From: Chitinophagales bacterium
GTDB taxonomy: Bacteria; Bacteroidota; Bacteroidia; Chitinophagales; CAIODY01
Direction of reading: 5' to 3'
Length of the DNA stretch: 36,741 nt
Assembly: GCA_947449695.1 (NCBI GenBank)
Contig: CANFST010000029.1
Location: 1 to 36,741 of the forward strand
Shown: piece after piece, positions 34,729 through 36,741 of the stretch
Layout: every line of letters starts with the position of its first letter
Position numbering within the stretch: the stretch's first letter is position 1
Position numbers and translations under genes: made by a program
The notes under the pieces: generated by a model
Seen by the model: only the letters and a program-made list of their open reading frames with translations
Database searches by the model: none
Told to the model about the DNA's origin: nothing

Positions 34729-35685
34729 TTAGTTATTTTCATTTACCTCACCCATAGCATCAAATTTTGCAATTCTTTTCTTCACCCGTTCTTCAGCAGA
34801 TTGTTCTTTTAATTCAGTTAAATATTTTTTAATTTCTTTTTTAATAATAGCAGCCATCTCTGAAGGATTAGCATGTGCTCCACCCAAAGGTTCTTTAATT
34901 ATTCCATCTACTAGATTAAAAGAACGCATATCGTCGGCAGTTAGTTTTAATTGTTCTGCAGCTTTTTCTTTAAAATCCCAACTACGCCATAAAATTGAAC
35001 TGCAACTTTCTGGCGAAATAACTGAATACCAAGTGTTTTCAAGCATCAATACTTTATCTCCAATTCCTATTCCTAATGCACCGCCTGAAGCCCCTTCACC
35101 AATAATAATACAAATGATCGGCACTTTAAGTTTTGCCATTTCAAATAAATTTCTTGCAATCGCTTCCCCCTGCCCTCTTTCTTCTGCTTCTAATCCTGGA
35201 TATGCTCCTGGTGTATCAATAAATGTAATAACAGGTTTATTGAACCTTTCAGCTATTTTCATTAATCTCAAAGCTTTTCGGTAACCTTCTGGATTAGGCA
35301 TTCCAAAATTTCTGTATTGACGTTGTTTTGTATTCGAACCTTTTTGTTGTCCAACAATTATTACCGACTGGCCATCAATTAAGCCCATTCCGCCTACCAT
35401 GGCTTTATCATCTTTGACGTTTCTGTCACCATGCAATTCTATAAATGATTCACAAATTTGTTCAATATAATATAGTGTGTAAGGTCTTTCTGGATGACGG
35501 CTCAACTGCACACGTTGCCAAGGACTAAGTTCACTATAAATCTTCTTTTTTAATTCTATAATTTTATGCTCTAATTCTTTCACAGTTGAGCTCATATCAA
35601 CCTTTGTTTTTTCCGCAATCTCATTCGTTTTTTCAATTTGTTTATAAAGTTCTTCTATTGGTTTCTCAAAATCTAAAAATGTCAT
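34729..35685 (-). CDS. accA: acetyl-CoA carboxylase carboxyltransferase subunit alpha (AccA)
   Basis: Alpha subunit of the carboxyltransferase that moves carboxyl from biotin to acetyl-CoA, giving malonyl-CoA for fatty acid synthesis; it works with AccD, not in this window. From ATG 35685 it has 318 residues, the normal length. The N-terminal [18 protein letters not shown] is diagnostic. Further motifs are [59 protein letters not shown] and [18 protein letters not shown]. The 18 extra codons upstream are not family-like and overlap the promoter box at 35706. It begins a likely three-gene transcript accA-GGGPS-rsgA. Confidence 0.96.
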
Positions 35686-35705
35686 GGTTTTGATTTTTGT
35701 TTTGT

Positions 35706-35713
35706 CAAAAATA
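35706..35713 (-). promoter_or_regulatory. -7 box (TATTTTTG) before accA
   Basis: On the minus strand TATTTTTG matches TANNTTTG, 20 nt before the accA ATG. TTTC sits 18 nt further upstream in place of TTTG. Confidence 0.38.
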
Positions 35714-35741
35714 CACTTTGAAATTAAATTTGAAAGCATCC

Positions 35742-35797: not shown

Positions 35798-36741
35798 CTA
35801 ATAAATGGTGTGGTAGTTCAGTTGGTTAGAATGCCGCCCTGTCACGGCGGAGGTCGCGGGTTCGAGTCCCGTCCACACCGCTGAAAGGGACTTTTGATAA
35901 TTTATATCAAAAGTCCCTTTTTTATTCTCGGTTGAAAACCGCTTCCAATCAGCGATTTGAGCAAATACCAAATTTATTTTCGTGGTTCGAAATGTATGAT
36001 TTTGACGATTGTAGTAAATTCCTTCAGGAAACATTAATTTCTGCAATTTTTCTTTTGATGAGTAATCCGTAGAACTCCATGCTGTAGCAAGGTTCGCAGT
36101 AAAATTCAATGCCTTTTCTAAGTTGTTTTGCAGGTTCGAAATATCAATATTGGAATCACACAAATTTTCCTCTATTGTCTTTTTTTCTTGTTGGTATTTC
36201 AATAAGAATTTTTCATAAACAGGTTTGGGAATCTCTATTTTAATAAAATGCCTTTCTTCTATATCATCAATCTTTTTCTGTACCTCCGTTAAATTACTTT
36301 TGATAACCTTCTGTTCCGAAACGTTATCTTCTTGTTGCTTTTCTACTTCGCTGATGACTTCGTATAAGAATGGTTTAATGCAATCGGCATTCATCTGAAA
36401 TTGATTTAGGAAATCGGCAAATAACTCATGCATTTGTTTTGCACTTTTGTTGCAGCGGCAACCATTTGTTCTGCATTTGTAATAATACAAACCCTTAGCT
36501 TTCACGATATACCCAGCAAATGGTTCTTTGCAATCATCACATTTCATAAATACTTTTAATGGAATATTGTCATTCTCTTTTCGATGTGGGACACCAAACC
36601 TTGAAGAGTTTTGCATGATATCATTAATACGTAAAAACATTTCTTTCGTAATCATTTTTTCATGCGTACCTTCTACTACTTCACCATCTAATAAGCCGTG
36701 AGCAATTAAGCCACAGTAAAATGGATTTTTAAAAATTTTCA
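35798..36741 (-). CDS. large serine recombinase, C-terminal part (runs off window)
   Basis: The frame is open to the window's right end. The visible 314 codons start within a recombinase domain (KNPFYCGLIAHGLLDGEVVEG, read as KNPFYCGLIAHG then LLDGEVVEGTHE; next ITKEMFLRIND). A zinc beta ribbon follows (MKCDDCKEPFAGY; CRTNGCRCN), then a long coiled coil and a family-type tail (GIYYNRQNHTFRTTKINLVF). The N-terminal catalytic resolvase domain is outside the window. The ATG at 36655 is internal, not a start. The frame has no stop before it reads antisense through the tRNA terminator and the whole tRNA-Asp, ending at 35798; its last 27 codons are thus tRNA-derived. Such enzymes integrate and excise mobile elements. 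Confidence 0.85.
   Translation of the reverse strand, partial: KIFKNPFYCGLIAHGLLDGEVVEGTHEKMITKEMFLRINDIMQNSSRFGVPHRKENDNIPLKVFMKCDDCKEPFAGYIVKAKGLYYYKCRTNGCRCNKSAKQMHELFADFLNQFQMNADCIKPFLYEVISEVEKQQEDNVSEQKVIKSNLTEVQKKIDDIEERHFIKIEIPKPVYEKFLLKYQQEKKTIEENLCDSNIDISNLQNNLEKALNFTANLATAWSSTDYSSKEKLQKLMFPEGIYYNRQNHTFRTTKINLVFAQIADWKRFSTENKKGTFDINYQKSLSAVWTGLEPATSAVTGRHSNQLNYHTIY
35807..35880 (+). tRNA. tRNA-Asp (GTC)
   Basis: A 74-nt cloverleaf. The acceptor arm is GGTGTGG with CCACACC, and discriminator G80 follows. The D-arm region is TAGTTCAGTTGGTTAGAA. The anticodon stem CCGCC/GGCGG encloses loop CTGTCAC with anticodon GTC (35841-35843). The T-arm GCGGG-TTCGAGT-CCCGT is intact. The 3' CCA is not encoded. 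A strong promoter lies upstream and a 16-bp hairpin terminator follows after 3 nt. The antisense strand is open as the tail of the recombinase frame. Confidence 0.97.
35884..35923 (+). terminator. tRNA-Asp terminator, inside the recombinase frame
   Basis: A perfect 16-bp inverted repeat: AAAGGGACTTTTGATA (35884-35899), 5-nt loop, TATCAAAAGTCCCTTT (35905-35920), then T to 35923. The T-tract is on the plus strand only, so it terminates the tRNA, not the recombinase. Confidence 0.9.

Follow-up and report, generated by a model that had tools for sequence, protein, structure and literature searches.

How does a recombinase gene come to run, with no stop codon of its own, into the antisense strand of an intact tRNA gene? 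The question is raised by the right end of contig C29 from a Chitinophagales bacterium, a stretch of 36,741 nucleotides that is the whole contig and is called the window below. The contig is one of 99 in a 3.14-Mb draft genome and ends inside the recombinase gene. The sole long frame there (36741-35798, minus strand) has 313 codons, is cut off by the contig end, and traverses a hairpin and then tRNA-Asp before it stops (Table 1). An initial annotation had stated that the recombinase has no stop ahead of tRNA-Asp and that its last 27 codons (residues 287-313, the WTGLEPATSAVTGRHSNQLNYHTIY region) are complementary to the tRNA, and both statements were borne out by the frame and the ARAGORN tRNA call. 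The reading favored here, which is very probable, makes the right end of the window the attL of an element integrated by a large serine recombinase (LSR) at the 3' half of tRNA-Asp, with attP inside the LSR gene itself. The annotation had likewise put the attachment site in or beside the tRNA's 3' half, and had proposed an element continuing to the right and a C-terminus that differs between integrated and excised forms; these proposals gain support from near-identical copies at other loci of the genome and the genus.

Table 1. Features at the right end of the window and the basis of their assignment
Feature	Position	Strand	Basis
accA (acetyl-CoA carboxylase alpha, named from sequence), chromosomal flank	34729..35739	-	
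Tail of the recombinase frame from antisense tRNA-Asp, in place of the native tail; stop 35800-35798	35798..35879	-	
tRNA-Asp(GTC), probable integration target	35807..35881	+	ARAGORN
Positions 1-72 of tRNA-Asp, chromosomal; base 73 (35880) onward, element-derived			Empty site and element pairs
T-loop GGTTCGAGT, at 11-19 bp from the crossover centre and predicted as the attB zinc-domain (ZD) motif	35859..35867	+	Sequence; 5-bp shift relative to attP arms; ZD model (PMC3783163)
Predicted crossover dinucleotide CC, tRNA positions 71-72	35878..35879	.	Core common to the C2, G272 and G304 elements maps here
Putative element-borne tRNA terminator hairpin, 17-bp stem, also translated within the recombinase	35883..35921	+	Folding
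Element-encoded recombinase part (C-terminal half, with PF07508, a weak zinc ribbon and a coiled-coil region), truncated where the contig stops	35880..36741	-	

Assignment of the truncated gene to the LSRs rests on a Pfam match to the PF07508 Recombinase domain (residues 1-43, 1.4e-05, above cut-off) and on an 888-bp DNA match at 95% identity, which begins inside the tRNA and reaches the contig end, with a complete LSR gene in contig C2, which adjoins tRNA-Ser(TGA) and encodes both PF00239 (1.8e-26) and PF07508; the window gene is thus a probable LSR. Its zinc ribbon (PF13408) scores 18.1 bits, below the Pfam cut-off of 25.3, and the catalytic domain (PF00239, N-terminal resolvase) falls outside the window, the contig ending first. 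The N-terminal half is not assembled separately, and its resemblance to the C2 copy is the probable reason. Contig C78 was considered as the continuation of the window and rejected, its LSR N-terminus being 95% identical to that of C52 and not C2-like. An AlphaFold model of the C2 copy in its integrated form consists of beta strands followed by a 49-residue helix (residues 359-407); pLDDT is below 50 from residue 513 on, and the hairpin-encoded linker and antisense-tRNA tail therefore look unstructured in the model.

A comparison of the tRNA-Asp locus with that of a relative free of the recombinase, envisaged in the initial annotation, could be made with same-genus genome G002. There the accA-tRNA-Asp neighborhood is kept, a different terminator lies 3' of the tRNA, and the LSR is absent, while in the window ARAGORN finds the tRNA intact at the junction, the pattern of integration with a restored tRNA. 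The far end (attR) of the window element was not located in the draft assembly, and a search with the native tRNA-Asp flank from G002 found the flanking genes situated elsewhere in the window's genome (G000) and in same-genus G001; the claim therefore rests on the near-identical copies in the genome and genus. One contig end of G001 (C98; L054 7312-7500) carries tRNA-Asp, hairpin and inverted tRNA-Asp, which is probably an assembly fold-back at the hairpin and thus an artefact.

Junctions were obtained at base resolution from two comparisons of other elements. The same-genus genomes G380 and G272 share a tRNA-Glu locus that holds, in G272, a 23.5-kb insertion including an LSR; attB reads ..GGTTCGATTCCCGTACCGGCTACAAAGCC, attL ..CCGGCTACGAAACG.. 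and attR ..CTATAGAGGCTACAAAGCC, with GGCTAC as core. In the complete genome G304, tRNA-Leu(CAA) and tRNA-Leu(CAG) each hold an element. The LSR ends of the two are 97.9% identical, and their far ends are nearly identical through the core GGGCAC and then pass into different native flanks, each with a terminator-like hairpin. Flank comparisons of G348, G212 and G139 with G304 failed to delimit the element, and it was the element-to-element comparison that succeeded. The empty site and the element pair both place the crossover centre at tRNA positions 71-72. The duplicated core revealed by comparison is about 6 bp in the G272 and G304 elements, and their far ends hold no displaced piece of the tRNA. 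The initial annotation was wrong to expect a second tRNA-Asp fragment, because the identical core is only this long.

Within the window's genome, an attL near tRNA-Ser and an attR (C2:14171-14219) bound about 34 kb, and the same LSR end occurs in same-genus G001 at tRNA-Ser(TGA) and tRNA-Ser(GCT), together with a matching attR. The C2 attL and attR have 51 bp in common, hairpin included, and LSR att sites are imperfect palindromes, both of which favor the palindromic terminator hairpin, instead of the tRNA end, as the attachment site. However, the hairpins of other elements are unrelated to this one, the attR sides of G272 and G304 bear a native terminator and no element hairpin, and tRNA-Asp of G002 lacks the hairpin. 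The hairpin was rejected as att centre on these grounds, and an attachment site of this kind is very improbable. Crossover in the tRNA end, the preferred reading, must accommodate a second hairpin copy beyond attR in C2 and G001, followed in G001 by a remnant of an LSR 3' end (80% over 120 nt). This second hairpin, on the chromosomal side of attR, is read as a relic of an earlier element at the same tRNA, and the C2 copy counts against the preferred explanation to the extent that it demands this extra step.

The geometry of the att sites, as it emerges from comparison, bears on the type of enzyme involved. The attR arms of Ser-type and Leu-type elements carry TTTCGAAC/GTTCGAAC at 16-24 from the centre, and the tRNA side carries xTCGAACC (T-loop) at 11-19, so that the ZD motif is displaced by exactly 5 bp between the two in both types. 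The LI integrase has the same 5-bp shift, from 16-24 in attP to 11-19 in attB (PMC3783163). The motif match in attP is weak in the Glu clade (GTTTGGAAG). Four Ser-type attR arms were located by means of the tail peptide (see below), which overlaps the motif; the arms of C2, G001 and both G304 elements were located without it. We infer that the zinc-ribbon domain reads the near-universal T-loop GGTTCGA, in which case one enzyme could serve several tRNAs, provided that these have the 71-72 pair and base 73 in common. Consistent with this idea, near-identical LSRs occur at Asp and Ser tRNAs (CC-G) and likewise at a pair of Leu tRNAs. A different history would have a tyrosine integrase insert the element at the tRNA, with the LSR as a mere passenger near its end, and tyrosine integrases are indeed the usual users of tRNA genes, the only ones known according to Islander (PMC4383910). 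Yet the 3' end of the LSR gene is itself the junction, with the crossover inside the LSR frame, the core is just 6 bp, and the ZD-motif shift is typical of LSRs, which makes such a history highly improbable.

Entry of the LSR frame into a tRNA is also the pattern found when related loci are surveyed. With the C2 protein as query (E <= 1e-30), matches were found in 79 of the 396 genomes of the order. At 67 of 75 homologous LSR loci a convergent tRNA lies within 200 nt, and the frame enters the tRNA in every one; tmRNA (ssrA) is the convergent partner at two further loci of the 75 (L079 3069-3435 and L118 1609-1974). The tRNAs belong to 11 isotypes (Arg, Ser, Leu, Pro, Met, Asn, Glu, Asp, Phe, Val, Lys), which appear to group by clade on the LSR tree. 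A scan of named genomes yielded 80 LSR loci, a set overlapping the 75, with a tRNA or tmRNA present at 70 and entered by the frame at 69; these loci are from Bacteroidota wherever the record title gives a lineage. The window's genome has six PF00239 matches, none of them on C29. The match on C78 is truncated at its contig end, and the other five LSRs, with intact 3' ends, all run convergently via a hairpin into a tRNA in the same frame (C2, Ser; C52, Met; C41, Met; C1, Val; C20, Arg), the antisense T-arm codons giving G-x-E-P-like motifs. The antisense-strand stop lies anywhere from 8 to 1049 nt beyond the RNA 3' end among the surveyed loci, and the integrated tail is therefore not conserved.

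Because 67 of 75 homologous loci are alike, chance is excluded for the window frame, and the remark in the initial annotation that serine recombinases use tRNA genes less commonly does not hold for this LSR clade, in which tRNA use is the rule. An accidental run-in, in which an LSR gene that has decayed at the 3' end adjoins by coincidence a tRNA with no attachment site, might appeal to the incomplete window copy and to an antisense T-arm that happens to be an open frame, but it is scarcely credible, being already refuted by the base-resolution junctions of the empty site and element pair and by a frame that is always the same across 11 isotypes and tmRNA. One LSR, nearly identical to the tRNA-Ser LSR of L059, lies at a site that is not a tRNA but has part of the motif, GCGGAGAAGAAGGGATTCTCC (L061, ~3039, reverse strand), a probable secondary integration site.

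A hairpin follows the tRNA in all 67 loci (median -21.5 kcal/mol), and at 66 of them the T content at its foot is greater in the tRNA direction (8.3 vs 2.8 of 12). The window hairpin (-22.7 kcal/mol, z -8) has a U-run in the tRNA direction only, and in G272 and G304 the native terminator of the tRNA was found displaced to attR. These comparisons indicate that the element hairpin is a replacement terminator for the tRNA; it does not resemble a terminator of the LSR gene. The initial annotation was right that the recombinase frame crosses a terminator, but this terminator belongs to the element and is not the tRNA's own.

When the attR and attL arms were joined in silico, the LSR proved to be in frame with a tail from the far end of the element. 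Such native tails include SAGSKFNISNQFLKDLEDIVSFMKRFKSL in C2, PRTISSSNFSIEDVKNILLYQIENLST in G304 and ASIGASLEEFAADINAVLELKIKSKNPDPIELGF in G272, each followed by a stop, which falls 24-36 codons past the core in all rebuilt circles. Beyond the att arm, the mean BLOSUM score of the tail is +14.0 in the LSR frame, compared to -4.5 and -6.8 in the other frames; none of 2000 codon shuffles matched the LSR-frame score, and the three clades found without tail-based searching give a permutation p of ~1.5e-4 for tail coding. This similarity is specific to the LSR frame, arguing that attP sits within the LSR gene. SSV-type archaeal integrases also have attP within the integrase gene, but they are tyrosine enzymes whose gene is split and gains no new tail. 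A search for the tail peptide in G308, G390, G334 and G328 gave no convincing match. In G049 (C1, ~1172182 and 1173166) and G184 (C13, ~44886 and 45671), two native-tail ends lie within 1 kb of each other, which points to remnants that several elements left in tandem at a single tRNA. Searches for close relatives returned five phage matches, all at ~30% identity over less than half of the protein, and none among plasmids or viral contigs; consequently, no natural circle was found.

On the favored reading, the LSR recombines attP of the element with an attB formed by the 3' half of tRNA-Asp, the crossover falling at tRNA bases 71-72 and the zinc-ribbon domain contacting the T-loop, a protein-DNA contact proposed from the motif positions. 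With attP lying inside the recombinase gene, at its 3' end, the enzyme made from a circle, a form presumed for the window copy as well, would terminate in the native 24-36-codon tail with its own stop. Upon integration this tail would come to lie at the element's far end, and the LSR frame would be fused to antisense tRNA. The end of the element would provide tRNA base 73 and a one-way terminator in place of the displaced native one, so that the tRNA would remain functional. The two protein forms may differ in activity: it is possible, though rather doubtful, that the whole clade evolved to read the T-arm, which tRNAs and tmRNA have in common, and that tail exchange acts as an inbuilt switch, the native tail favoring integration of the circle and the antisense-tRNA form being weakened or biased, in which case insertion itself would set directionality.

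Exchange of the integrase tail and rare serine integration at tRNA genes are both already known. In streptococcal ICEs with a single serine integrase, inserted at rumA, the crossover likewise lies in the 3' end of the integrase gene, and the 3' parts of integrase and target are swapped with a change of C-terminus; the target is one protein gene and not a tRNA or tmRNA, and neither target restoration nor a built-in terminator is described in the accessible part of that account (PMC4701971). According to a 2011 survey, tRNA genes are rarely entered by serine integration; phiRSM1 is named there, and eight Mycobacterium AICEs are reported (PMC3218068). The Mycobacterium AICEs at tRNA-Leu and the Ralstonia phage phiRSM resemble the present elements in having a serine recombinase at a tRNA gene, but phiRSM has a resolvase/invertase-type enzyme and a 13-bp core, and C-terminal exchange is not reported for either in the accessible text (PMC3218068, PMC4471427). 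A Riemerella tRNA-Arg island was rejected as a serine precedent, since it uses a tyrosine integrase (PMC6764341). Large serine integrases of the LI/A118 type share the ZD-motif positions and short core, but their attB is not a tRNA (PMC3783163). The tyrosine-integrase islands of Islander (2014) also target tRNA genes and restore them with island sequence; their enzyme family is different, and a piece of the tRNA stays behind at their far end, unlike the ~6 bp left here (PMC4383910). The main text of Durrant et al. (2022) does not mention tRNA (PMC10083194). A literature search covering mainly papers outside subscription journals found no description of an entire LSR clade targeting tRNA and tmRNA genes, nor of its combination with tail exchange on this scale in Bacteroidota.

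A widespread Bacteroidota LSR clade that targets tRNA and tmRNA genes systematically stands against both the restriction to tyrosine integrases stated by Islander and the "rare" of the 2011 survey. Its natural att pairs of known geometry, from 11 tRNA isotypes and tmRNA, would form a series for the study of target choice by serine integrases, and its members are candidates for DNA insertion at tRNA genes in Bacteroidota. Tail exchange also accounts for recombinase genes with predicted products that finish in a peptide read from antisense tRNA, and it opens the function of the LSR C-terminal tail to direct tests.

The genes beside the integrases deserve a brief description. In the C2 element (L016 1848-12788), type I restriction-modification genes (HsdR, a BRO-N protein, HsdM and HsdS) lie beside the LSR, and a two-component propeller sensor is also present; no conjugation domains were found by Pfam among the scanned C2-region proteins, which include the type I restriction genes instead. 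On C78 (L017 1-9009), the LSR N-terminus at the contig end is followed by a MerR-like regulator, HsdR, HsdS and an AbiEi/AbiEii pair, which is defence-type cargo next to an integrase.
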